NCBI GenBank assembly: GCA_007692665.1 | Contig: REBP01000087.1 | Coordinates: forward strand, 1-64,000 | Length of the DNA stretch: 64,000 nt | Direction of reading: 5' to 3' | DNA from: Gemmatimonadales bacterium | Lineage (GTDB): Bacteria; Gemmatimonadota; Gemmatimonadetes; Longimicrobiales; Gaopeijiaceae | Shown here: in pieces, positions 43,403 through 64,000 of the stretch | Layout: each line of letters opens with the position of its first letter | Position numbering within the stretch: position 1 is the stretch's first letter | The notes under the pieces: model-generated | What the model was told of the DNA's origin: nothing | Databases searched by the model: none | The model's input: the letters and a program-made list of their open reading frames with translations, nothing else | Position numbers and translations under genes: made by a program

Positions 43403-43927
43403 TCACGGGACAGCTGCACCCACGTTCAGCAAGTATCGATCCCCGACCCGCTCCACCGTCCCGCGGCGAATCCGAGCCTCGCCCTCCCCGACGGCCCCCT
43501 CCACCGGCAGCCTCAGGTAGTCCCCCGTGAGTCCCAGGGGCACGCCATCGGTCCCCGGACGCTCCACCACCACCTCCACCTCGGCCCCCACTCGGGAGGC
43601 CAGGTACGCCTCCCCCCTGGCCTGTCCAAGTTCGCGCAGTTCCCTGGCTCTCTCCGCCGCGACGCGCTGGGGAACCGGCATCTCCCGGGCCAGCTCCGCC
43701 GCCGGGGTGCCCTCCCGGGGCGAGAAGGGGAAGACATGGAGGTAGGTGAACGGAAGCTCCTCCACGAGGGCCACCGTCTGCTCGTGGTCCTCGTCGGTCT
43801 CGCCGGGAAAGCCGGTGATGATGTCGGCGCCCAGCCCAAGGCTCCCACCGGCGCCCACGCCCAGGGATTCCGCAATCTCCAGGGCTCGATCACGATACAT
43901 GGCCCGCGTGTGCCGGGGGTCGATCAC
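43403..43927 (-). pseudogene. mtaB: MtaB-type methylthiotransferase, 3' half only
   Basis: The last 174 codons of a radical-SAM methylthiotransferase of the MtaB type, which makes ms2t6A in tRNA. Retained are DIITGFPGETDEDH, FTYLHVFPFSPREGTPAAEL and a C-terminal TRAM-like domain. The whole N-terminal UPF0004 domain and the C-x3-C-x2-C cluster motif are missing (intact members have about 430-450 residues). Homology stops at RHTRAMYRDRA, near 43,915; upstream codons in frame (LAFGPITDGAPQT) show no similarity. The gene has been cut, and I interpret the break as the edge of the accessory island to the right. Confidence 0.75.
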
Positions 43928-44921: not shown

Positions 44922-45182
44922 TCAGCGCTTCCCGCCCCTTCCCTTCCCTGGCTTCTGGGAAAGCGCACTCCCAGCGGCAGACTTGGACTTCGCGCTTGAC
45001 CGGCCGTCCCGGAGCGTCTTCGACGCCGCCGTCGCGGCCTTCTTGGAAGTCACCTTCTTCGTGTTCGACTGCGCCAACGCGCTCCCTGCCGCCGACTTGG
45101 ACTTGGCTCCGGTGGACGGGGACTTCAGGGTCTTGGCAGCTGCGGCTGCTGCTTTGGGGCTGGTTTTCTTCTTCTGCGCCAT
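44922..45182 (-). CDS. Small Lys/Ala/Ser-rich basic protein with two 29-residue repeats
   Basis: An 86-residue strongly basic protein. The ATG is chosen for the GGAGG seven bases upstream; a longer frame starts at 45221. It consists of a lysine-rich head, two copies of a 29-residue unit (residues 10-38 and 48-76; shared core KSKSAAGSAL then A/S-Q) and a basic tail (KPGKGRGGKR). Small proteins with this AA(S/A)KTL...SKSAAGSAL(A/S)Q pattern occur as uncharacterised genes on mobile DNA. The composition suggests nucleic-acid binding or a histone-like role, which is inference. It lies downstream of the defence operon on the same strand. Confidence 0.7.
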   Translation of the reverse strand: MAQKKKTSPKAAAAAAKTLKSPSTGAKSKSAAGSALAQSNTKKVTSKKAATAASKTLRDGRSSAKSKSAAGSALSQKPGKGRGGKR

Positions 45183-45503
45183 CTCGCACCTCCGGGAAGG
45201 GTGATCCAGCAACGTCCCCACCCGAACAATACCCGAATGAAACGCCGCGGTCCAGAGGTGCTCACAACCTGATGACGAACGATCCGGCTAGCCGGTTTTC
45301 ATCAGTCGCCGGACTCCGGTTCTCGAACTGGACTGGACCGGGTCGATTCGAACTGCCCGGCACTCCCCATCGGCTCTCGAAGCCGATGACCGGCGAAACC
45401 AGTCGAGTCAGGCGTCCCCGGCCTCAGTCCAATCGTCTCCATCCCCCGTGTTCCATTCCCCGGCTCTGGAGTCCTGACTGTCCTCGCACGCTTCGTCCCA
45501 GAC
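45183..45503. other. Gap after the RloC-like gene with one strong hairpin
   Basis: About 320 bases with no coding signal. It contains an 8-bp hairpin, CATCGGCT (45368-45375) paired with AGCCGATG (45381-45388), without a following T-run, and a TTCGAATC box on the minus strand (about 45345) that resembles a tRNA T-loop. Neither adds up to a complete tRNA. The hairpin could slow or end transcription leaving the defence operon. Confidence 0.4.
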
Positions 45504-47684
45504 CTACTCCTTGGCCATCATCATCGTGAAATGCTCTTTATGTCCGCTGAGTTTGAAGACCTCCTCGAAGACCCTGAGGTAGACCTCGGTCCCCTCCTCC
45601 GGAGCCACGTAAAGATCGTCCATCGCCCGATGTGAACCCGCGTGAGCCCACTTGATAAGAGATCTACAGACGATCATGTCTCGGCCCTCGAACTTGGACT
45701 CCAGTCCTTGGAGTGTCGTCGGCCCCACCATTCGGAAGTAGTTTTCGAGGATGCGCCGCATCCCGTTTTGGAGTCCGACAACGTCCTCTTCCGGCTGGCG
45801 GACAGCATCCCATAGCAAATCATACGTGGTGCTTACAGGATCCCTTTCCGCCGCCGAAACTCGCGAAACGCCACCCCGCTTTCGCACCACCCAAAATGCC
45901 TCATGGGACTGAGGCGCTCGACCCTGGCGCTTGTGGTCGAAGCTCCATTCGCGGTGAAAGAAGACGTTGTGGGTGAGGAGAAAGAGTTGCTTCACGGAGG
46001 AGTTTCCGGCCTCGACTTCCCGAACAAGCTCGCTCGTCAGGGCCGCCACGACGAATAGCACGTCCGCATCAAGGCTGGACACCGGGTCATCGATCACTAC
46101 GACTCGATCACCGGTGACTCCATCCCGCTCCTGGCTCCCCCGGGCCAGATGGAAGAAGTACAGGAAGGTGATGAATGACCGCTCCCCCTCGCTGAGTGTC
46201 TCGATGGCATCGGAGCCGTCTTGACGTATGATCCGGTAGCTGTCCTCCTCCGGCCCGGGGGCAAGGGAGAAGTTGGAGAAACCCAAGGACGTGAGCAGCC
46301 CATTGATGGCGGCGATCGTCGCCCCGACCCCGGTCATTCTCCGCTGGCACTCCCTGACCCCTTCAAGGGCTGCGTTCTTGTCAGCCTGTGCCTCCGCAGC
46401 CGCCCGACCGATTGCCTCATGCGCCCGAGTCAGATCGTCCCGCTGCCCGCAAAACAAGTCGATAACGGGGCGAAGGTCCCGAACGACAAGATCCCACACC
46501 TCCCGCCGGACCCGAGCTTGCTCGTAGCTTCGGTTGTCCAACGCGGCGTTGTGTTCCCCGATCCGCCCATTTGCCCTGTCGATCAACTCATTCAGGGCCT
46601 CGATGGCCGGTGTGGTGTCTTCCAGTCGCATGGGCTGACTTGGCTCATCGACCTTCTCCTGGATCCGACGTAGGTTGGCATCAAGACCATCCAGGACCCG
46701 ACGGTTGACGACCTGCCACTGGGTCAAATCGACGACCTGCCGGGCCGAGTCCTCCATCTCCGCGAGTCTCTCCTCAAGCGAAATCCTCGCGGTCCGATAG
46801 GCTGCCATGGACCGTTCGACCGCATCCAGCCGCTTCTCGAATGACTCGTCGAAATAGGCTTCGAGGTCCTTCTGGAGAGATTCCGGGGCCACCTGTTGGC
46901 AGAAGGGGCAGGCCCCCTCGGCTTGGTCGAGGAAGGGACGCCCCTGCTTCACCCAGTCGCTATTCCCGATGCGCTCGATCAAGCCAGCGAGTTCCACGGC
47001 GGCCGACCCGACGATCGGGTGGCCCAAGCTCTCGTCGGTTTCAACCGCCGTCATGGCCGTGCCGGCAACTCGCTCCAGCGGTGCGATCCGGTGGGCCCCC
47101 GGTGCGAAAACCGCAGTGTGCCTATCCTTGAGGCTCCTCCGGTCTAGCCCCTCCGAAGGCTCTCGTTCGCTCTCTGCCATCACCTTGGCAGCGAGAGCTC
47201 TCTTGGAGCCTAATACCCCCGACATCGCCTCCCTGAACTCTTCGGTGAACGGCCGGGCAGCCTCCCAGCTCGCGTCCGCGAACCGGGCTTCAGCATCTGC
47301 GCGCTCGGCTTCCTTTAGCCTACGCTGGATCTCAACCGCTTCCGCCTTCCTTCTGGCGCTCTCCGCCCGCCCTTTTTCGTAATCCAACCGCTTCCGCAGC
47401 TCGATGTGCTCCTCCCCCAGTGTGAACACTCCTCGAATCAGGGCCGACTCGGAGAAGTTGGCAAGCACAAAGTCCCGGTTGTAGACATACCGGCCTACCT
47501 CGGTCCCGCCTTGCCAGACTAGGTCGCAATCCGGGTGGTTGATCTGCCCGCCGATCACCCGGGAAATCGTGGTCTTCCCCGACCCGTTCATCCCGAAGAA
47601 GTAGTTCACCGGCCGCAGGTCCGAGAGGACGGCCGGCTCGCCGGTGAACGTGGCGCATCCGGAGATTCGGAGTGATTCAATCAT
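45504..47684 (-). CDS. RloC/PrrC-like ATPase, probable anticodon nuclease
   Basis: A 726-residue SMC-like ATPase of the AAA_13 (PF13166) family. Walker A GMNGSGKTT at 31-39, signature LSEGERS at 497-503, Walker B VVVIDDPVSSLD at 528-539, H-loop LLTHN at about 570. Coiled-coil regions (about 90-135 and 265-345) flank a CPFC zinc-hook-like pair at 259-262. The C-terminus has Arg643-x3-Glu647 and a histidine 34 residues on (WAHAGSH). This mirrors the catalytic R-x3-E...H of PrrC and RloC anticodon nucleases, and the length and CxxC fit RloC. RloC-type enzymes cut tRNA when a phage blocks or damages the host; here the gene follows res by 36 bases. Activity is inference. Confidence 0.8.
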   Translation of the reverse strand: MIESLRISGCATFTGEPAVLSDLRPVNYFFGMNGSGKTTISRVIGGQINHPDCDLVWQGGTEVGRYVYNRDFVLANFSESALIRGVFTLGEEHIELRKRLDYEKGRAESARRKAEAVEIQRRLKEAERADAEARFADASWEAARPFTEEFREAMSGVLGSKRALAAKVMAESEREPSEGLDRRSLKDRHTAVFAPGAHRIAPLERVAGTAMTAVETDESLGHPIVGSAAVELAGLIERIGNSDWVKQGRPFLDQAEGACPFCQQVAPESLQKDLEAYFDESFEKRLDAVERSMAAYRTARISLEERLAEMEDSARQVVDLTQWQVVNRRVLDGLDANLRRIQEKVDEPSQPMRLEDTTPAIEALNELIDRANGRIGEHNAALDNRSYEQARVRREVWDLVVRDLRPVIDLFCGQRDDLTRAHEAIGRAAAEAQADKNAALEGVRECQRRMTGVGATIAAINGLLTSLGFSNFSLAPGPEEDSYRIIRQDGSDAIETLSEGERSFITFLYFFHLARGSQERDGVTGDRVVVIDDPVSSLDADVLFVVAALTSELVREVEAGNSSVKQLFLLTHNVFFHREWSFDHKRQGRAPQSHEAFWVVRKRGGVSRVSAAERDPVSTTYDLLWDAVRQPEEDVVGLQNGMRRILENYFRMVGPTTLQGLESKFEGRDMIVCRSLIKWAHAGSHRAMDDLYVAPEEGTEVYLRVFEEVFKLSGHKEHFTMMMAKE

Positions 47685-47720
47685 CGAACTGCGATCTCCA
47701 CGCTTGAGGCTCCCGCGGAC

Positions 47721-50705
47721 TCACTGTTGGACGGCATCCAGAACCCCCTGAAGCGTCTCGCCGACAACGTACTCCGCCGGGTTCTCCTTCACTGCGATCG
47801 CCTTGAAATGGGCTCGCCCGCACTGGATCTTGGCGTCCTCCTGCCACCGAAGCGCGCCTTCGATGACCGTGTCTTTCGATTCGACCACCAGGTAGAGCTT
47901 GTCGGTCCCGTCCTCGTCGACGAGAACCGCCCAGTCCGGATTGTACGTGCCGAGGGGCGTCGGGACCTTGAACCAATCGGGTAGCTTCGTGAACACCTTC
48001 ACGTCGGTGTTCCGGTCCAGTTCCTGGGCAAAGGCTCGCTCTACCCCAGAATCGTAGCGCACGTACTCATGGAGTCCGCGTTCTACGCGCTGGAGGTTTG
48101 CCTCTAGGTGTCCGGCCAGCTCTTGGGACTCGAAGAGCTCCTGCGCGTAGAAAGCTCCATCCCCGATCCGGCGATACCGGATCCCGTCCACGAGGGCCCG
48201 GCGCTTCTCGGTATTCACGATGTCGGCTGCGAGCTCGATGTATGCCTGGGGGTTCCGGCGGAACTGGTCGAGCTTCCGGCTCTCGACAAGGATCCTCCGG
48301 ATTGTCCTCCGAGTGAGCTGCGTGCGGTCCTGGAGTTCGGTGAGTACATCCGGTAGGGGCAAGTCATCCTCTCGGATGGTCCGAATCTGCGCCCCTCCAC
48401 GCTCCGTGGCGTCGACGCCTCCCTTGGTGATTTCGATGTCGGCCTTCCGCCACTGGATCCGGGTCAGGGGAATCGCGGGCGCTTGCTGAATGCGCCGAAC
48501 GCACTCGGAGATCAGCGTCTCGTTGTCGAACCTCACGCGGTACGTGGTCTTGTCCCGGATCCGCTCCCAGAGCGACTTGAACTCCGGGCTGTCGAAAACC
48601 TGCTTTCTCACGGCCACTGTGTGCCGCGCGTCGGCATCTCGAATCGTAAGTCGGCCGGCGAGCTTCCGCAGGATAGTCTCGGCCTGCTCTGCGACCTCGG
48701 CGAAGTCCTCGGGGAGCTCGAACGCTCCATCGCGCAATGCGACCCGCAGCCCGTCCTGTACTTTCCCCTTGTCCGAGATGTACCCCTTTTCAACCAGGGC
48801 CGTCCAGAGCTCCTCGGACCGGGCAGCGCCCAGAGGCGCGAGGTCTCCTTCCTCTGAAGTGACCCCGATCCGGGCGAACTGGTGCCGCTCGACCACCCCG
48901 AAGCGGATCCCTGTTTCTTTCTCGATCTCCTTCTGGAGGTTCTCGGCGAACTCCTGGTAACCCTCCAGGGCCACGACCGTAAGCGTGTTCACTTCGTGCC
49001 CACGCACCCGGTGCCCTTCCTGATTGACGCACAGACGCAGCCCTCGACCGATCGACTGCCTGCGCTCCCGCTCCGACCCCATCTCCCGAAGCGTACAGAT
49101 CTGGAAGACATTTGGGCTATCCCATCCTTCCCGGAGCGCCGAGTGGGAGAAGATGAACTTGAGGGGCTCGCCCAAGCTCAGGAGCTTTTCCTTGTCTCTC
49201 ATGATGAGGTTGTAGGCGCGCTCCGCGTTGTCCCGGTTGGTCTGATTATTCTCCGCCGTGTCGGTCCACCCGCCCTTCTTGTCGATGGAGAAGTACCCGT
49301 CGTGTACTTTCCCTGGGTCACGGGAGAGGTCGACTTCCTCGAACAGGGTTTGGTAGTCCGGGTGGTTAGCGGCGCGTCGATACTCCTCTTCAAAGATCCG
49401 GGCGTAGACACCCTTCTGGGGCTCGCCGTCATCGTCGTACGTGCGGTACTTCGCAACCTGGTCGATGAAGAAGAGGGACAAGACCTTGATCCCCCTCGGC
49501 CTGAGGCGCCTCTCCTTGTCCAAGTGCTCCTTGATGGTTCTCCGGATCATCTCGCGGGAGAGACCCAGGGGGTCGACGTCCCCTGTCGCCTGGCCTGGGG
49601 ACAGAAACTCCTCCCCACCGGGCATTCGCAACTCCATGAAGGGGTTTTCCCGCCCAGCCCGGAGCTCGCCAACCTGGTATCCTCCGTAGATGGCCCTTCC
49701 GGTGACCTGCTCCAAGTCGTCTCCGTCGCAGACCACCTTGGCCCTGCGCGAAACCGAGCCGTTCTGCTGTACGTCCAGCGTGACTCGGGCCGTGACTCCG
49801 CCACCGGCGCTCTCGATGCGTTCGAGGCGCACGAACGGCCGGTTGTGGGCGTTCTCCACGGTGGCGGACGCAACCTCGATCTGCTTCACAAGCTTCCGCT
49901 CATAGGCGTCAACGGCATCGAGCTTGTAGACCATGTGGTGCTGGTCCACGTGGGTGGCTGAGTAGCGGAAAGTTGCCAGGGAGTTCATCGCTTCGAGCGC
50001 CTCCTTCCCCCGACCCTGAAGGCCTCCGTCCACGCTCTGGGGTTCGTCCACGATGAGCACCGGGTGCGTGGCTCTGATCAGGTCGATCGGGCGTTCCCCT
50101 CCTGTCTTCTCGCTGTCCTTGTAGAGATTGTTCACATCCTTCTTGTTGATGGCCCCAACCGTGACCACCATGACCTGGATGTGCTGGCTGGTGGCGAAGT
50201 TCCGGACTTCGCCAAGCCGCCCCGAGTCGTAGAGGAAGTAGTCAAACGGGACCCCGGCGTATAGCCCCCGGAAGTGGTCCTCCATGATCTGGAGCGACTT
50301 GTAGACCCCTTCCTTGATGGCAATAGAAGGGACCACGATCACGAACTTGGTGAAACCGTACCGTCGATGTAACTCGAAGATCGTGCGCAGGTAGACGTAG
50401 GTCTTCCCGGTCCCGGTCTCCATCTCTACCGTGAAGTCGCGGGAACCCAAGACGTCATCCTGCCGCAGCCCATGCCGAAGCTGGACGTCGCGGAGGTTGC
50501 GGAGGAGGTCCTCATCCAAGGGCAGCTTCGGGTTGCCCACGCCCAAGGAGTCATCGTCCAGGTCGAGCTCCAAGGCGAGCGCCTTCCGGGTTACGGTGAA
50601 CTCGGAACGGTGGGTTTCCTGCCCTCGGAACAGGTCGGACACGGCTTCGATCGCCTGGAGCTGGTAGTCCAGATCCGGCTCGAAATGGAGCTTCATTGTC
50701 GCCAT
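47721..50705 (-). CDS. res: Type III restriction enzyme Res subunit (helicase-nuclease)
   Basis: A 994-residue SF2 translocase with C-terminal nuclease. METGTGKTYV (Walker A, about residues 95-104), VLIVDEPQSVD (DEPQ box, about 217-227), the helicase motif QSIGRGLRL and a C-terminal PD-(D/E)xK site, Pro923-Asp924...Glu942-Ser-Lys944 (NPDWAV, VVESKD), are all intact. With Mod it would recognise unmodified asymmetric sites and cleave after long-range communication. The start ATG is one base after the mod stop; size and motif order fit the EcoP1I/EcoP15I type. Confidence 0.92.
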   Translation of the reverse strand: MATMKLHFEPDLDYQLQAIEAVSDLFRGQETHRSEFTVTRKALALELDLDDDSLGVGNPKLPLDEDLLRNLRDVQLRHGLRQDDVLGSRDFTVEMETGTGKTYVYLRTIFELHRRYGFTKFVIVVPSIAIKEGVYKSLQIMEDHFRGLYAGVPFDYFLYDSGRLGEVRNFATSQHIQVMVVTVGAINKKDVNNLYKDSEKTGGERPIDLIRATHPVLIVDEPQSVDGGLQGRGKEALEAMNSLATFRYSATHVDQHHMVYKLDAVDAYERKLVKQIEVASATVENAHNRPFVRLERIESAGGGVTARVTLDVQQNGSVSRRAKVVCDGDDLEQVTGRAIYGGYQVGELRAGRENPFMELRMPGGEEFLSPGQATGDVDPLGLSREMIRRTIKEHLDKERRLRPRGIKVLSLFFIDQVAKYRTYDDDGEPQKGVYARIFEEEYRRAANHPDYQTLFEEVDLSRDPGKVHDGYFSIDKKGGWTDTAENNQTNRDNAERAYNLIMRDKEKLLSLGEPLKFIFSHSALREGWDSPNVFQICTLREMGSERERRQSIGRGLRLCVNQEGHRVRGHEVNTLTVVALEGYQEFAENLQKEIEKETGIRFGVVERHQFARIGVTSEEGDLAPLGAARSEELWTALVEKGYISDKGKVQDGLRVALRDGAFELPEDFAEVAEQAETILRKLAGRLTIRDADARHTVAVRKQVFDSPEFKSLWERIRDKTTYRVRFDNETLISECVRRIQQAPAIPLTRIQWRKADIEITKGGVDATERGGAQIRTIREDDLPLPDVLTELQDRTQLTRRTIRRILVESRKLDQFRRNPQAYIELAADIVNTEKRRALVDGIRYRRIGDGAFYAQELFESQELAGHLEANLQRVERGLHEYVRYDSGVERAFAQELDRNTDVKVFTKLPDWFKVPTPLGTYNPDWAVLVDEDGTDKLYLVVESKDTVIEGALRWQEDAKIQCGRAHFKAIAVKENPAEYVVGETLQGVLDAVQQ

Positions 50706-50706
50706 G

Positions 50707-52605
50707 TCAAAGGCTCCTGACCTTGGCGATGCCAGCCTGTTCTAGGATCGCAACCAGGTTGGCTTTCGCCACATCGGACTCGAACGCGCTGTCCCGGAAG
50801 ACGGCCGTGCTGTCTCCGGCAGGTGAGAGTTCACGTCGCCATTCCCCGATGGAAGTGGCCACTTCCTCTGCTCCTAGCGCTGTCATGTGTGGAGACAGAC
50901 AAGCGAAAAGCACGCCGGCCCCGATGCTGTGTACTGTGAGGCCCGCAACCTCCCGGGATTCCGTCTCGACGCAGAGATCCAGTCCGAGCTTTAAGAGCAC
51001 CTCATAAAGCACATCCGTCTCGGTTCGCTCCGGCAAGATGTGCTCTTCGTGCTCGAGGAGGATTTGCTCGAGGTTCTCCGGGGTGGAGTCCCACGGACGG
51101 ATGTTGCTACCATCAAGCCGGAAGGTCCGGAAACCCAGATCACCGCCGAAGCCGGGCGCCTGACGCCCGATCCGCTCTCTCGCTCGTACCAATCGCTCCT
51201 TCGTGAGTTCTGCTAGATTCGGCGGCCGTCCGGCGTTCTCACATGCGGCCGCTGCGGATCTTTGCTCGGCTCTGGCTCGATCCAAGACCTCGGGAAGCTG
51301 GACCAAAATGAACCGCACATTGCGGGACCCCTCGGCATTCATCTCCATCACCGCCTCCGCCGTGGTCCCAGATCCAGCGAAGAAATCGCATACGATGTCC
51401 CCATCCTCTACTCCAGATACGTCGAAAACCCGTCGGATTAGGCCGAGAGGTTTGGCAGTATCGAACGGGACATCCCCATCGAACAGCCTCTTCAGCTCTC
51501 TCGACGCCTGTCTTGTCGTCCCAACCTCCTTCCCAAACCAGATCGTTTCGGGGGTCCGCCCATCCAAGCCCGCAAGATAGATCTTGCGGACAATCCTGGT
51601 CTCATCATCCGCAAACACTATTTCACCCGTTGCGATCTTGGCTGCCATGGTGTCTCGACTCCAACGCCAACCCTTTTCTGGGGGCTTTATGGTTTTTCCG
51701 GAAGGCGTCCGGAGATCATAAATGAGGTTGGGGCGGTAGAGGGCGTTTCTCACGTCTCCCGAGCGCCACGGTCCACGAGGATCGTTATCTGGGTTCGAGT
51801 AGTTTTTGTTGTGTTCATCCGTCCGGGGGAGACTTGTGAGTTCGAACTTGTCGGATCTCCTGTAGCACAACAGAAAGTTGTGGTGAACCGAAAAATGACC
51901 AGAATAGCCCTTCGGCTGAACGCTGTGCTGCCAAATCACGAAGCCTTCAAAGTTATCCGCTCCGAACACCTCATCGCACAGGAACTTGAGGGATGCTACC
52001 TCCATGTCATCTATGGAGATGAACACGACTCCGTCCCGACGGAGAAGGTTTCTCGCCAACCTCAGCCGCGGATACATCATGTTGAGCCAATCGGTATGAA
52101 ACCGTCCACTGGCCTCCGTGTTGCTCGATACCCTCCGCCCGTCCTCCACCTGTGCCGTAAGCTCCAAGTAGTTTCGGATGCTGTCGTGGTAGTTGTCGGG
52201 GTACACGAAGTCCTTACCCGTGTTGTACGGAGGGTCGATATAGATGAGCTTCACCCTCCCAGCGTAGCTCTTCTGGAGGAGCTTCAGCACCTCCAGGTTG
52301 TCACCTTCGATGACGATGTTCTTCGTCGTATCCCAGTCCTGGCTGTCCTCCGGCACCGGGCGCAGGGTTCCGGCCGAGGGCGTGAGCGCGAGCTTCCGTG
52401 CGCTCTTCTTCCCGTGCCAGTTGAGCCCGAACTTCTCCTCGCTCTCATCTCCCTCGTCGCCCAAGAGCTGGTGAAGGACATCGAAGTCGACGTCACCGTC
52501 CTTGAAGGCCTCGGGGAACAACTCCCGGAGGCGCTCCAAGTTCTCCTGAACGATGTCGGCGGACCGGGCTTCCGGGGAATCGGCGGCAATCTTCTCAATG
52601 GGCAT
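50707..52605 (-). CDS. mod: Type III DNA adenine methyltransferase Mod
   Basis: A 632-residue beta-class N6-adenine methyltransferase: catalytic motif IV YIDPPYNTG comes first (residues 122-130) and the SAM motif I CDFFAGSGTT later (about 407-416). The target-recognition domain therefore lies between them (roughly 215-395). That part is visibly less GC-rich than the flanks (for example 51841-51900 has 27 G or C in 60), which fits exchange of specificity modules. The first 90 residues (MPIEKIAADSPEARSADIVQ onward) are typical of Mod proteins. It is transcribed just before res and 37 bases after the DUF4391 gene. Confidence 0.93.
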   Translation of the reverse strand: MPIEKIAADSPEARSADIVQENLERLRELFPEAFKDGDVDFDVLHQLLGDEGDESEEKFGLNWHGKKSARKLALTPSAGTLRPVPEDSQDWDTTKNIVIEGDNLEVLKLLQKSYAGRVKLIYIDPPYNTGKDFVYPDNYHDSIRNYLELTAQVEDGRRVSSNTEASGRFHTDWLNMMYPRLRLARNLLRRDGVVFISIDDMEVASLKFLCDEVFGADNFEGFVIWQHSVQPKGYSGHFSVHHNFLLCYRRSDKFELTSLPRTDEHNKNYSNPDNDPRGPWRSGDVRNALYRPNLIYDLRTPSGKTIKPPEKGWRWSRDTMAAKIATGEIVFADDETRIVRKIYLAGLDGRTPETIWFGKEVGTTRQASRELKRLFDGDVPFDTAKPLGLIRRVFDVSGVEDGDIVCDFFAGSGTTAEAVMEMNAEGSRNVRFILVQLPEVLDRARAEQRSAAAACENAGRPPNLAELTKERLVRARERIGRQAPGFGGDLGFRTFRLDGSNIRPWDSTPENLEQILLEHEEHILPERTETDVLYEVLLKLGLDLCVETESREVAGLTVHSIGAGVLFACLSPHMTALGAEEVATSIGEWRRELSPAGDSTAVFRDSAFESDVAKANLVAILEQAGIAKVRSL

Positions 52606-52642
52606 GGCTTGGATGCTGAGGGGGGTTCAGTTGGCGAAGGAG

Positions 52643-53401
52643 TCAGAGCCGCTCGAGTGCGACGTCGCGCTGGGCTTCCAGCTCCCGAATGCGGAGGTTC
52701 AGCTCGACTTGGCGGTTCATCTGGCGTTCGCGCGAGGCTGCGCGCCGGAGCTTGGCGATCTCGGACGCGGTCGCCTCAAACTCCCGGAGAGCGTCCCAAC
52801 GTTGCCGGTTTCGCTCCATCGAAGCAAATCTCTCGTAGTGGTGTGACAGTCGGGCGGCGAGTAGCGCGCCCATGGCGTCGATCCACCCCTGGTAGACGGC
52901 AAGCAGGTCGGTACGCGGCTGCTCCGATAGAGCCAGGGCCCCAGCGAGCGCAGGCAGGTAGGGGGCATCGGCCGCCACATCGAGCTCGATGCGTACCATG
53001 TCTCCATCCAGCACCCACGCATCCTCCTGCGCGCGGGATCTCCTCAGGTGCGCGGCGGAGATACCAACCGTTCCCTCCTGCTCGGTCACCAGGAGCATCG
53101 GATAAGGAACTGCGCGATGGAATAGCTGGCTGAGCCTCGTGGCCTTCGCACCCTCGCGGAGCTCCATTCGGAGAACCGCTAGTTCAAGGTACTCGCGCGC
53201 ATCTGATCGGTGGGCCTGAGCCCCGGCGTCGCCAGGCTTGAGGATGGCGTGCCAGCGGATTTCCTCGATTCCTTCCTGGATCTGCTTCCGGTCTGTGGGC
53301 GTCGCCACCCCATGCTCCAGAAGGAGCTTCTTCGCCACCCGGCGGTCCACCCGGGCGGCTTCTGGGAGTTCAAGGGCACAGAGGAGGTCGTCTGCCGTCA
53401 T
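52643..53401 (-). CDS. DUF4391-domain protein
   Basis: A 252-residue protein of the DUF4391 family (PF14335), seen in the central blocks VAKKLLLEHG, IEEIRWHAILKP, EYLELAVLRMELRE and LFHRAVPYPMLLV. The last 60 residues form a coiled coil (LRRAASRERQMNRQVEL). Members are usually found next to type III or helicase-type restriction genes and have no known biochemical role. The ATG overlaps the stop of the helicase gene (ATGA), so the two are made together, and a complex between them is plausible. Confidence 0.85.
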   Translation of the reverse strand: MTADDLLCALELPEAARVDRRVAKKLLLEHGVATPTDRKQIQEGIEEIRWHAILKPGDAGAQAHRSDAREYLELAVLRMELREGAKATRLSQLFHRAVPYPMLLVTEQEGTVGISAAHLRRSRAQEDAWVLDGDMVRIELDVAADAPYLPALAGALALSEQPRTDLLAVYQGWIDAMGALLAARLSHHYERFASMERNRQRWDALREFEATASEIAKLRRAASRERQMNRQVELNLRIRELEAQRDVALERL

Positions 53402-56400
53402 GAGGCTGGCAGCACGACTAGGTACGCCAACACTTCGAAGTCCTCAAGACCAGCGAACTCCCCTCTTCGGGCGTGGGTGCCCCCCGGCTTGAACAGGCTC
53501 TCGACGGCACGCTCTTCGGAGGTGCCCGTCACGGTGCCCACCGCGGCCTCGAGCTGGCGGCGAAGCCCTTCTGTGTTCCTGCCTTCGCTGGTCGACGCGT
53601 CCAGCCGTCGACACGCCTCAGGGTCAGGCAGGCTCCTTCCGTGGCCTAGTCGCTTGACCCGATCGAGGATCTGTTTGGCTTCCAAGAAACTCATGACCAC
53701 ACCCCCATCCTCCCCGACGTGAACCAGGTAGTGGGGCGCGAGAGGATACCCGGGTTCGAAGGCCCGGGTTGCGGCCGCCCCTTCGGCCCTCAGGCAAAAG
53801 ATCACGCCGGGCGAAACCTCCGAATCCTCGGCAAGAACCACCGCCCCCAGGCCTTGGGGAAGCCCTTCGACGTGTCCGGGGTGCTCCCTCCGAAAATCCG
53901 CCAAGTCGATCCGGAAGTCCGATAGGGTCAGATCGGTAATCGAGACTCCGCTGGACAGGTCTTCCAGATCAATGACCGAATCCTGGAGCTTGAGGAGCTG
54001 CCTTCTCCTGTACTCGAGGTCGTTCATCGGGTCACCGGACTGCTGCTCGATGACGTTTTCCTCGCCCGTGGCCGAGACGTCCAACAGAACCATCCGGCCG
54101 CTGACCCGCTGCTCCAGGTTGATGTATTCCTCCAGCTCCAGGTTGGGCCAGAAGTTCACGAGCTGGATCCGGTCGTTGGGGGAAGCCAGCCGGTCGATGC
54201 GCCCGAACCGCTGGATCACCCGCACCGGGTTCCAGTGAACGTCGTAGTTCACAACGGTGTCGCAGTCCTGGAGGTTCTGGCCTTCCGAGATACAGTCCGT
54301 GGCGATGAGGAGGTCGATCTGTCCCTCGCCGGCCATGTCCTCGGGCCGCTCCTTCGATCGGGGGGAAAAAGCCGTGAGGATCGAGCTCATGTCCTTCCGG
54401 AGGCCTCGAAGCGTTGTGTCGTTGCCCCCGCTCCCCGTCACCAGTGCCGCCTCGATCCCCAGTTCCGCCTTGGCCCATCCAGAAAGGTCCTGGTACAGGT
54501 AGGCCGCGGTCTCGGCGAATGCCGAGAACAGGAGGACCTTGCGATTGCCGGGGTTGATGGGGTTCCGGCACTTCTTCTCGATGAGTTCGCGCAGCTCGCT
54601 CAGCTTTGCGTCACGGCGGGCCGTGACGTCCTGAGCCGAAGAGAGGAGGGAACGCAGTCGGTTGCGGTCCTCGATGAGGTCCTGGCGCCACCGGATCAGG
54701 TCCACATCCTGGAGAAGCACACGCACCTTCTTTCCGACCAGGAGGGCCTCGAAAGCCGGATCCTCAGGATCGATGTCCGAGATGTCCAGCTCCTCGAAGT
54801 CGCCGTCGTGAGCCTCGATCCTTGTGAGGGTAGCTTCCACATCCCGGAGCTGGCGCTCGATGGTGAGGGCGAAGGCGTGAACCGAGCTCTCCATCCGTTT
54901 GAGGATGTTTACCCGGAGCAGATGGATGAGGCTCTCCTCCCTGTCCGCCTGCCGGAAGAACCCCGTACCACCGCGCACCTCCTGGGAGTACTTCTCGTCG
55001 TAGGCCTCCTTCCTGTGCGGGAGCACATACCGGAGGGGGGCATAGCTCGCGAGATTCAGCCTCCGGATCTCCCGGTTCACCTCCTCGATGGACGGGAATC
55101 CACCTTTGAGGTCCACGTCGGCGCGGATGTTGATGGGCCGAAGCCGCTCCGGGAACCGACCGGTTTCCGCGGTGCCGTAGTACTTCTCCACGTGGCGTCG
55201 CGACCGCGCGATGGTGAGGAGGTCAAGCAGGCTGAAGTAGTCAAAGCCGAGCATCTCGACGAGCCTTCGAGGCTCTCGCTCCCCGTCCGGGAGCTGGAGC
55301 CACCGGTTGAACTCCTTCTGCGCGTTCCGCGTTGTGGCCTCGATGCTCTCGATGCCGTGCTCAGCCAGGGCTTGATCCTGCCCTTCGACGATGAAGGCAA
55401 TCTGGTTTCGGAGGTCCGCGAGCCGGTTGTTCACGGGGGTGGCCGAGAGCATGAGGACGCGTGTTTTCACGCCCTCCCGAATGATGCGCCGCATGAGCCG
55501 GTCGTAGCGGGTCTCCCCTCCCTTCTTGGGCGACGCCTTATTGCGGAAGTTGTGGCTCTCGTCGATCACGACCAGGTCGTAGTTGCCCCAGTTCACGTTG
55601 GCCAGATCGATGTCCCCGGAGAAACCACCGTCCCGGGAGAGGTCCGTGTGGTTCAGGACGTCGTAGTTGAAGCGGTCCTCTGCCAGGATGTTCCGGCGGT
55701 CGTTCGCACGGTAGAGCGTCCAGTTCTCCCGCAGCCTCTTGGGACAGAGGACGAGTACCCGGTCGTTTCGGAGCTCATGGTACTTGATGATCGCGAGCGC
55801 CTCGAACGTTTTGCCGAGTCCCACGCTGTCGGCGATGATACAGCCACCGAACCGATTGAGCTTGTCGATGGCCCCCACGACCCCATCGCGCTGAAACTTG
55901 TAGAGCTTCCGCCAAACCTTCGTGTTCTTGATCCCAGTGGCGGCCTTGACGATCTGATCCTCGTCCAGGGCATCGCCCTTGGCGCCGAAAAGATGGTGGA
56001 GGAAGAGGGCGTAGACCACCTCGGGAGCCGGGTGAGCCGAGAGGACGTTCAGGACATCCACCAGGTCCTCGGGGGGCCCCTCGCGACCTTCCAGCATGGT
56101 CCACTGGTGCTCGAACCACTGCGCAAGCTGGGCCGCTTCGGCGGCACTCTCGGACGCTTGGATGAGGCTCATGGGGTTCCCCGGAGCGAGTCCGAGACCT
56201 TCTCGGGTGAGCCCGAAGGAGCCCAGGAGCGCCTGCGTCGGATCACCTTCGCGTCCCCTCAGCACCACCGCGCCCTGCGGTACCAGACCGTTGGCGCGAC
56301 GGCATTTGACCCGATCCCTAATCCACAGCGCGAGCCGTCCCGCAAGCCATCGGGCGCGTAGCGTATTGCGCTCAGCACGGTCATGGACGCCCCCCAGGAG

Positions 56401-56589
56401 ACCTCCGGCGAGCCCCTGCTCCGGCACGATCAAGCGCGCACCGTCTACCCTGGCGAGCTCGTCCTTCAGCGCGGCGAACGCGAACAGGGTTAGGTCGGAT
56501 GTGGCCACGTCGACGGCTACACCGCGCTCCAGCTGGGGGCGGATCGTGTCAACGACTCGGTCGCGGCCAGTGTTGGAAAGGACCTTCAA
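53398..56589 (-). CDS. SNF2-type helicase with decayed PLD-like N-terminus
   Basis: A 1063-residue SF2 helicase. The TTG start has AGGAG about nine bases upstream. Residues 1-150 resemble the phospholipase-D-like nuclease module of DISARM/restriction-linked helicases (ALLGSFGLTREGLGL) but the HxK catalytic pair is missing, so it is probably not a nuclease. Helicase motifs: DSVGLGKT at 254-261, VIDESH at about 341-346, MLSATPVNN near 381, and QRFGRIDR at 793-800 with TDCISEGQNLQ before it. A charged coiled region spans about 560-680. First gene of the operon; it probably moves on or remodels DNA for Mod/Res or DUF4391, which is inference. Confidence 0.88.
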   Translation of the reverse strand: MKVLSNTGRDRVVDTIRPQLERGVAVDVATSDLTLFAFAALKDELARVDGARLIVPEQGLAGGLLGGVHDRAERNTLRARWLAGRLALWIRDRVKCRRANGLVPQGAVVLRGREGDPTQALLGSFGLTREGLGLAPGNPMSLIQASESAAEAAQLAQWFEHQWTMLEGREGPPEDLVDVLNVLSAHPAPEVVYALFLHHLFGAKGDALDEDQIVKAATGIKNTKVWRKLYKFQRDGVVGAIDKLNRFGGCIIADSVGLGKTFEALAIIKYHELRNDRVLVLCPKRLRENWTLYRANDRRNILAEDRFNYDVLNHTDLSRDGGFSGDIDLANVNWGNYDLVVIDESHNFRNKASPKKGGETRYDRLMRRIIREGVKTRVLMLSATPVNNRLADLRNQIAFIVEGQDQALAEHGIESIEATTRNAQKEFNRWLQLPDGEREPRRLVEMLGFDYFSLLDLLTIARSRRHVEKYYGTAETGRFPERLRPINIRADVDLKGGFPSIEEVNREIRRLNLASYAPLRYVLPHRKEAYDEKYSQEVRGGTGFFRQADREESLIHLLRVNILKRMESSVHAFALTIERQLRDVEATLTRIEAHDGDFEELDISDIDPEDPAFEALLVGKKVRVLLQDVDLIRWRQDLIEDRNRLRSLLSSAQDVTARRDAKLSELRELIEKKCRNPINPGNRKVLLFSAFAETAAYLYQDLSGWAKAELGIEAALVTGSGGNDTTLRGLRKDMSSILTAFSPRSKERPEDMAGEGQIDLLIATDCISEGQNLQDCDTVVNYDVHWNPVRVIQRFGRIDRLASPNDRIQLVNFWPNLELEEYINLEQRVSGRMVLLDVSATGEENVIEQQSGDPMNDLEYRRRQLLKLQDSVIDLEDLSSGVSITDLTLSDFRIDLADFRREHPGHVEGLPQGLGAVVLAEDSEVSPGVIFCLRAEGAAATRAFEPGYPLAPHYLVHVGEDGGVVMSFLEAKQILDRVKRLGHGRSLPDPEACRRLDASTSEGRNTEGLRRQLEAAVGTVTGTSEERAVESLFKPGGTHARRGEFAGLEDFEVLAYLVVLPAS

Positions 56590-62647: not shown

Positions 62648-64000
62648 ATGGCAAAGAAGCAGAAGAAGAAGGGGGCCTCGAAGAAGGCTACCCGCTGGAC
62701 CACGACCGCCAAGAAGACGGCGTTGTCCAAGCAGGTGAAGCGCGCCAACAAGTGGATTCAGAAACGCCACCCGGGTGCCATCGACCGGGCCGGATGCGGG
62801 CTCTTCACTCAGGGCAGGGGAGGGATCAGCGTCACCAACGACTGGGTCATGGCCTACCTCGTCGGAGGTTGGGGGATGCCCAAGGAGCCGACCGTCTACT
62901 GCGAGATGACCGGAGGCTACTACCTCTACGACGCGAGAGCCACGGTCTACCGGGAGATCCGCCCCAACCAGGTGGTCCAGCGGCTCGCCGGTGTCGTCGA
63001 GACCTGCGGGCAGGACACAGGGAGTGCCGCGTTGCTCACGGGTCTCAAGTCCACGAGGTTCGCCGCGCTTCCGAGCGTCCTCGCCGGTCTGGTCGACCAG
63101 CAGCCCGACGGCCTCGGGTCGCCCATCAAGCGGCATGGTGCTGGATTTCTCCAAGTCCTGAACGGCCGCCTCGACCTCGCGACCCTCACTCTCTCGCCTG
63201 CGGTTCCGTCCAACGCCGGCGTCTGGCGGATCCCGGTGCCCTGGGTGCCCGATGCGAAGTCGCCCACGCGATTCCTGGCGTTCCTGAAGGAGATCATGCC
63301 GGACGAGGACGACCGGGAGCTGCTCCTCGACCTTCTCGCCTCGGCGTTCGTGGGAAACCCGTCCCAGAAACTCCTGATCCTCCGCGGAACCGGCGGCTCC
63401 GGGAAGTCGACGCTGATCAAGCTCATCCGGCTTCTCATCGGTGAGGGCGCAGCGGGGGAGCTGGGACTCGGCCATGCCAAGGAACGCTTCACCGCGATCA
63501 ACTGGCTGGGGAAGCTCCTTCTCGTGGAGAGCGAAGCGAGTCAGGCCGCGCTGGATGGCGCGTATTCGGAACTCAAGCGTCTCACCGGCCAGGACACCAT
63601 TTTCGCCGACCGGAAGAACCGGAGCCACCTCCAGTTCACCTCGGAAGCCCTCCCCATCCTGGTCTCCAACGAACACCTCACCATCCGCAGCCGTGGAGAC
63701 CAGGCGGCCTGGGAGCGCCGAGCCGTCATCCTCGATGCTGCTGAGCCGCCCAAGGACCGGGAGGCCATCACCGGACTCCACGACACCCTCGTGGAGCTTG
63801 AGGGTCCGGCAATCCTGAAGGTGCTGGCTACCCGAGCCGCCCAGATCCTTTCCGAGGAGCGGTCCGTCCGCCCCCTCAACGCCGCGCAGCGGAGCCGGGT
63901 CACGGCGCGCTTCTCCTTCCATGCCTATCTCACGGAGTGGGCACAGGAGAGGCTCACATCGCTCGGCGGCGCCCTTTGCCTCTACCGAGACGAGGCGTGG
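62648..64000 (+). CDS. Phage/plasmid-type SF3 helicase-primase, C-terminus cut off by window
   Basis: At least 451 codons; the gene runs off the right edge. It starts with a lysine-rich head (MAKKQKKKGASKKATRW), then about 200 unassigned residues, then the D5-like SF3 helicase: Walker A GTGGSGKST at about 247-255, LLLVESEAS as Walker B, motif C LPILVSNEH near 335 and an RGDQAAWERRAVIL arginine-finger region. Such proteins replicate phages, phage satellites and plasmids. The recognised part is C-terminal to the usual primase domain, which seems missing or replaced by the basic head. It marks the island as mobile. Confidence 0.8.
   Translation, partial: MAKKQKKKGASKKATRWTTTAKKTALSKQVKRANKWIQKRHPGAIDRAGCGLFTQGRGGISVTNDWVMAYLVGGWGMPKEPTVYCEMTGGYYLYDARATVYREIRPNQVVQRLAGVVETCGQDTGSAALLTGLKSTRFAALPSVLAGLVDQQPDGLGSPIKRHGAGFLQVLNGRLDLATLTLSPAVPSNAGVWRIPVPWVPDAKSPTRFLAFLKEIMPDEDDRELLLDLLASAFVGNPSQKLLILRGTGGSGKSTLIKLIRLLIGEGAAGELGLGHAKERFTAINWLGKLLLVESEASQAALDGAYSELKRLTGQDTIFADRKNRSHLQFTSEALPILVSNEHLTIRSRGDQAAWERRAVILDAAEPPKDREAITGLHDTLVELEGPAILKVLATRAAQILSEERSVRPLNAAQRSRVTARFSFHAYLTEWAQERLTSLGGALCLYRDEAW

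Follow-up and report, generated by a model that had tools for sequence, protein, structure and literature searches.

A conserved helicase-DUF4391-Mod-Res operon of the type III restriction-modification kind, carrying RloC as a probable exchangeable backup

Introduction

The minus strand of a 64,000-nucleotide stretch of DNA from a Gemmatimonadales bacterium (contig REBP01000087.1; the whole stretch is called the window below) holds five intact open reading frames (ORFs) at 45504-56589, in the order helicase, DUF4391, mod, res and an RloC-like gene. This raises the question of whether the five genes form one defence system or whether a smaller conserved unit has received an addition. An earlier note on this DNA suggested a layered five-part system around a type III restriction-modification (R-M) enzyme, in which foreign DNA is cut first and translation is stopped if that fails. 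PrrC of EcoprrI is an anticodon nuclease guarding a type Ic R-M enzyme. The window locus shares with it a tRNA nuclease, here a predicted one, placed in an R-M operon, and the same logic. It differs in carrying RloC and not PrrC, in a linkage that is not conserved, and in having no type I gene in the operon, so that the hsdMSR linkage of type Ic systems is missing.

Results

Gene identities and spacing

The five genes lie on one strand in the order and spacing that had been described, with joints of -4 (ATGA), 37, 1 and 36 bases along the transcript (Table 1), and the overlap between helicase and DUF4391 was borne out. The TTG start of the helicase gene is backed by aligned homologues. Profile searches gave matches to DUF4391 (PF14335, E=1e-56), N6_N4_Mtase (2e-30), the type III endonuclease domain PF19778 (2e-35) and AAA_13 (9e-145), and the SNF2 and Helicase_C matches exceeded the cut-off in the helicase. 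PADLOC matches comprised MTase_III (6e-208), REase_III (E=0), PDC-S06 (2e-226) and the candidate 'HKD+Snf2' C3a139 (5e-106). Moreover, Mod and Res each matched chains of the solved EcoP15I structure. With mod and res adjacent, methylase motifs in place and an endonuclease domain in Res, the locus has the genes of a type III R-M system, whose enzymes hemimethylate their site and, with ATP, cleave at pairs of unmodified sites. The anatomy of the five-gene operon is secure, and the mechanism set out below is a proposal.

Table 1. Features of the window and of defence genes nested in related operons
Feature	Location	Strand	Remarks
SNF2-type helicase/translocase	53398..56589	-	1063 aa; N-terminal PLD-like domain without HKD motif
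DUF4391 protein	52643..53401	-	252 aa; 4-base ATGA overlap with helicase
Type III Mod, N6-adenine methyltransferase	50707..52605	-	632 aa; 37-base gap after DUF4391; DPPY and FAGSG motifs
Type III Res, EcoP15I-type	47721..50705	-	994 aa; 1-base gap after mod; helicase and PD-(D/E)xK domain (PF19778)
RloC-like putative anticodon nuclease	45504..47684	-	726 aa; 36-base gap after res; accessory, outside conserved core
Displaced 3' end of mtaB	43440..43914	-	475 bp, 87.6% identical to contig 71082-71541; left boundary of low-GC island
DUF5906 (D5-like primase-helicase family) protein	62648..64000	+	Partial in window; replication-type gene of island
PsyrT and PsyrA	L023 (complete); L030 (homologues of both)	same as core	Inside core
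IetA and IetS	L089	same as core	Inside core
LmuA and LmuB (Lamassu)	L048	same as core	Inside core
PtuA and PtuB (Septu)	L082	same as core	Inside core
AbiLi and AbiLii	L087; L093 (homologues)	same as core	Inside core
DarT and DarG	L071	same as core	Inside core
Candidate PDC-M59A/B	L021; L042, L085 (homologues)		Inside core

The N-terminal 240 residues of the helicase were predicted to adopt a PLD-domain fold (pLDDT 85), with SauUSI as the best PDB match (E=1.5e-5). Thus the PLD-like character claimed in the earlier note holds for the fold and not for the HKD motif, which was absent from the window helicase on motif inspection and had no residue among the conserved columns of the family alignment (56 sequences). 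Since HKD is lost, we judged PLD nuclease activity unlikely; a binding role for this modelled domain is more likely than a cutting one. A profile search of the helicase and DUF4391 found no other nuclease domain. For DUF4391, a confident alpha/beta domain followed by a long C-terminal helical pair was predicted (pLDDT 95). A structure search with this fold against PDB and BFVD gave no match at E<=0.001, and a sequence-profile search gave no PDB relative. The role of DUF4391 is therefore a guess based on the position of its gene.

The operon lies on a low-GC island

Between window 44 kb and contig position 71 kb the G+C content is 0.57-0.66, down from about 0.70. An intact mtaB is present at contig 71051-72322, and a displaced copy of its 3' end marks the left boundary (Table 1). 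In the relative G093 the corresponding site is empty: mtaB and miaB are some 250 bp apart and nothing lies between them (L175). The operon therefore sits on a low-GC element of about 27 kb that shows the pattern of insertion at the mtaB 3' end. The island also gives a weak phage-integrase match. A 99-residue Lys/Ala-rich ORF (window 44922-45221) has no Pfam match; it contains repeated KSKSAAGSAL-like units and is histone-H1-like in composition.

Helicase, DUF4391, mod and res form a conserved unit

The locus collection was anchored on DUF4391, first in genomes of the window's phylum and then in 80 more loci from a scan of species genomes. DUF4391 was found in 7 of 399 Gemmatimonadota genomes. 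Besides the window, the four Gemmatimonadota loci with both flanks long enough (L008-L011) carry the four genes in the same order; in G090 a partial DUF4391 accompanies mod and res but the helicase gave no match, and the G223 locus is cut off in mod. All four genes lie on one strand in each of the 65 complete loci, and their order by ORF start is helicase-DUF4391-mod-res in 64, the exception (L076) being an ORF extended to the contig edge. Helicase and DUF4391 overlap by 1-4 bases in 39/65.

The 80-locus draw used a DUF4391 query, so this linkage count is conditioned, and a Res-anchored sample of 379 Pseudomonadota genomes served as the unconditioned test. Among the 23 loci with at least 7.5 kb of upstream sequence, 15 had both helicase and DUF4391, eight had neither, and no half-pair appeared at the thresholds used. 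Both samples thus support the grouping of the helicase/DUF4391 pair with type III genes. Conversely, the pair never appeared without Mod-Res on contigs that allowed a judgement. Pairwise identities among helicase, DUF4391 and Res correlated at r=0.81-0.86, and with Mod at 0.59-0.64 (permutation maxima 0.30-0.44), in a test that retains shared species history.

The quartet is spread over many bacterial phyla. Intact copies were likewise found on plasmids from an archaeon, Shewanella, Acinetobacter, Vibrio and Paraburkholderia, and one lies in an Erysipelothrix phage record (22-45% DUF4391 identity). Two more plasmids carry helicase, DUF4391 and mod, with res not listed in the PLSDB gene table, which is incomplete. 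The phage record (phi1605, MF172979.1, L131) also has mef(A)/msr(D) macrolide resistance genes according to the depositors' annotation.

In the Res tree, stand-alone members are scattered among cassette members with at least six label changes, indicating that the pair was lost or gained repeatedly. With stand-alone Res genes interspersed in this way, a single clade of cassette Res was ruled out. Given that Mod-Res of the same subfamily occur without the pair (8/23 loci; at least six changes on the tree), the pair is dispensable for persistence of the type III genes. A small regulator conserved in front of the helicase gene was also considered and rejected, as HTH-like ORFs were present in only 4/84 loci and not in the window. 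We found no published name for the quartet in the open-access literature, and no PADLOC model covers DUF4391. Taken together, these results show that helicase-DUF4391-Mod-Res is a conserved, widespread and apparently unnamed unit.

RloC lies outside the conserved unit

RloC proteins are anticodon nucleases that excise the wobble base, and they are recognized by a length of 658-897 aa, ABC ATPase motifs with a coiled-coil insert, a CXXC zinc hook and a catalytic triad, the last defined as C-terminal R-X3-E-X36-52-H with Ser often preceding His (PMC2610378). All of these were found in the window protein: 726 aa, ABC motifs (Walker A at 31-38, LSEGE at 497, Walker B/D-loop and linchpin His), a CPFC zinc hook at 259-262, and the triad R643-E647-H685 with Ser684 before the His, spaced R-X3-E-X37-SH. 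These sites align across 13 homologues, the His being replaced in one. That homologue (L115:688-2871), with a non-His residue at the catalytic position, is possibly inactive. The RloC-like identity proposed in the earlier note is thus upheld: the protein is RloC by every motif that sequence can address, and its nuclease activity is predicted.

No RloC gene adjoined the quartet in any of the 65 loci. No match was obtained up to E=0.01 except a 243-aa ORF in L048 at noise level (E=0.0087, 13 bits), and RloC was absent from all Res-anchored Pseudomonadota loci. A linkage search for the ordered five-gene set, as the earlier note had proposed, therefore finds the first four genes linked in 65/65 loci and RloC in none. 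RloC is an optional add-on outside the conserved four-gene unit. The survey of 72 RloC genes, which describes mostly unlinked ones, maps eight to type I or III loci (PMC2610378), so finding RloC next to a type III system has precedent. The view that no named system is known to match the locus is upheld for the quartet in the open-access literature; RloC near type III genes is not new. The window copy differs from a solitary RloC, or one beside type I genes, in lying behind a type III res.

RloC could be an independent passenger of the island, that is, a self-contained anticodon nuclease activated by DNA damage and without regulatory connection to the type III enzymes, and we give this reading appreciable, though less than even, weight. 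The mainly unlinked genes of the 2008 survey (PMC2610378) fit such a passenger, as do 13 Pseudomonadota RloC loci in which queries that may miss divergent type I genes detected neither type I nor type III genes nearby. The neighbours of eight plasmid RloC genes also vary: type I genes lie next to two of them and a type II enzyme lies near another, type III genes were seen beside none, and the remainder include toxin-antitoxin genes or no such neighbour. In G093, whose contig starts inside res and leaves the upstream genes unseen, the end of res, a 36-base spacer and the start of rloC are kept at 83.5% DNA identity across two genera. There rloC stops after about 105 codons, and its truncation despite the retained junction again suits a passenger, whereas the shared strand, the 36-base gap and the identity kept across genera argue for a tie to res. 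RloC also sits tightly against other R-M operons, which speaks against independence: in G090, which has the best match in the rest of the phylum, the RloC gene overlaps the end of the hsdMS gene of a type I locus, with hsdR upstream, and on an Acetobacter plasmid RloC lies behind hsdR. Because an intact RloC beside the quartet operon was seen once, in the window, the case for functional coupling is drawn from spacing and from analogy (PrrC; PMC2610378).

Defence systems are nested in the operons of relatives

At least one same-strand ORF of at least 120 aa was present inside the core in 42 of the 65 full loci. Core inserts were oriented 69 same versus 4 opposite, and flanking ORFs 121 versus 91 (Fisher p=2e-10), although the ORFs of both sets were picked mechanically, and spurious ones in the flanks may exaggerate the contrast. 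Several inserts are complete two-gene defence systems (Table 1). Others are GmrSD_N proteins (14/78), RhuM, DUF6988, SoFic, YhcG and TIR, and one (L022) is a transposase. The window RloC is the same kind of addition, but positioned after res. Since other complete defence systems occupy the operon in relatives, the fifth gene appears as an exchangeable backup and not a fixed part of a machine. The concept of backup effectors embedded in core loci has been put forward for BREX and BREX-related systems (PMC12839542); for the helicase-DUF4391-Mod-Res operon, we found no such description in the open-access literature.

Relation to known systems

The operon agrees with type III R-M of the EcoP15I kind (Mod2Res) in its adjacent mod and res, DPPY and FAGSG motifs, and Res with an SF2 motor and PD-(D/E)xK domain. 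It differs in the conserved SNF2/PLD-like helicase and DUF4391 before mod, and in its accessory genes. Like BREX-related systems (PMC12839542), it combines an HKD/Snf2-type helicase, a small DUF protein and an N6-methylase and has auxiliary effectors inside core loci. Unlike them, it has a Mod-Res type III core and a lost PLD motif and lacks the DUF499 ATPase; neither DUF499 nor DUF1156 was matched among the operon proteins by profile search. With DISARM/ARMADA (PMC12458937) it shares an SNF2 helicase adjoining an N6-methylase, but not the YprA-like helicase, DUF1998 or DrmC. DISARM comprises drmA, drmB and drmC, to which drmD-drmMI may be added; profile searches found neither DrmB nor DrmC families among the five proteins, and the helicase scored 154 with DrmD, far below the cut-off of 610. 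SauUSI, a PLD-helicase type IV enzyme, likewise joins a PLD-like fold at its N-terminus to an SF2 motor, whereas the window helicase lacks HKD, has no modified-base-binding domain that we could find, and is linked to a methylase. Against the PLD-helicase anti-phage model NF042964 the helicase reached 112.7 bits, with a curated cut-off of 1100. Membership in DISARM, BREX-related or PLD-helicase systems was rejected on these missing core genes and low scores.

The resemblance of the helicase to DrmD, BrxH and PLD-helicase models raises the possibility that helicase and DUF4391 are a second restriction arm, which would recognize self by Mod methylation and attack unmodified DNA itself, as BREX-related and DISARM helicases do, without assisting Res. 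Type 2 BREX-related systems, uniting an HKD-Snf2 helicase, a small DUF protein and an N6-methylase (PMC12839542), lend this some plausibility. We consider it less likely than not, given a PLD domain without HKD, no other nuclease domain in either protein, the covariation of Res with the pair, and a pair not seen apart from Mod-Res where contigs allowed. A dedicated five-gene defence system, as the earlier note had it, is very improbable and largely refuted by the linkage counts: the tight spacing of all five genes and the res-rloC junction common to G093 stand against RloC in 0/65 core loci and no Res-anchored locus, a truncated copy in G093, and operons occupied by other toxins or systems in relatives.

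Discussion

We conclude that the locus is probably a horizontally acquired EcoP15I-type type III R-M operon of a conserved four-gene kind, with RloC appended as an exchangeable backup. In such an operon, Mod would mark self DNA and, together with Res, cut unmodified DNA. The translationally coupled helicase and DUF4391 may serve Mod-Res as an accessory that translocates DNA with ATP, the dead PLD-like domain presumably being for binding and not for cutting. RloC would be co-transcribed behind res and stay latent until DNA ends or failed restriction activated its ABC/zinc-hook module; it would then cut tRNA anticodons, and translation would stop. The layered idea of cutting first and then stopping translation thus survives in a weaker form, because relatives' operons hold other toxin or abortive systems: as a general pattern whose backups are exchangeable it is plausible, and as a dedicated five-gene system it is not.

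More tentatively, the quartet might constitute a distinct unnamed class of type III systems, in which an Snf2 motor whose PLD domain is dead joins the new-fold adaptor DUF4391 in an extra arm of Mod-Res, and in which the operon is a platform for exchangeable suicide backups (RloC; PsyrTA, IetAS, Lamassu, Septu, AbiL, DarTG) triggered on failed restriction. If true, a large share of one type III subfamily (15/23 Res loci in the Pseudomonadota sample) would consist of four-gene systems with no function assigned to the first two genes, one of which encodes a member of a family whose confidently predicted fold has no counterpart in the PDB searched. The co-directional nested abortive systems would also make the idea that R-M holds suicide systems in check testable beyond PrrC, with natural swaps as controls.

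Two further arrangements appeared among loci lacking the helicase/DUF4391 pair. The stand-alone mod-res pairs of L094, L095 and L096 (G262, G086 and G098) are nearly identical across genomes of different families, which suggests recent transfer. In two of the eight pairless Res-anchored loci (L160:9912-12761 and L166:8368-11298), a different, DrmD-like SNF2 helicase precedes mod-res with DUF4391 absent, and this is a second helicase-type III combination.
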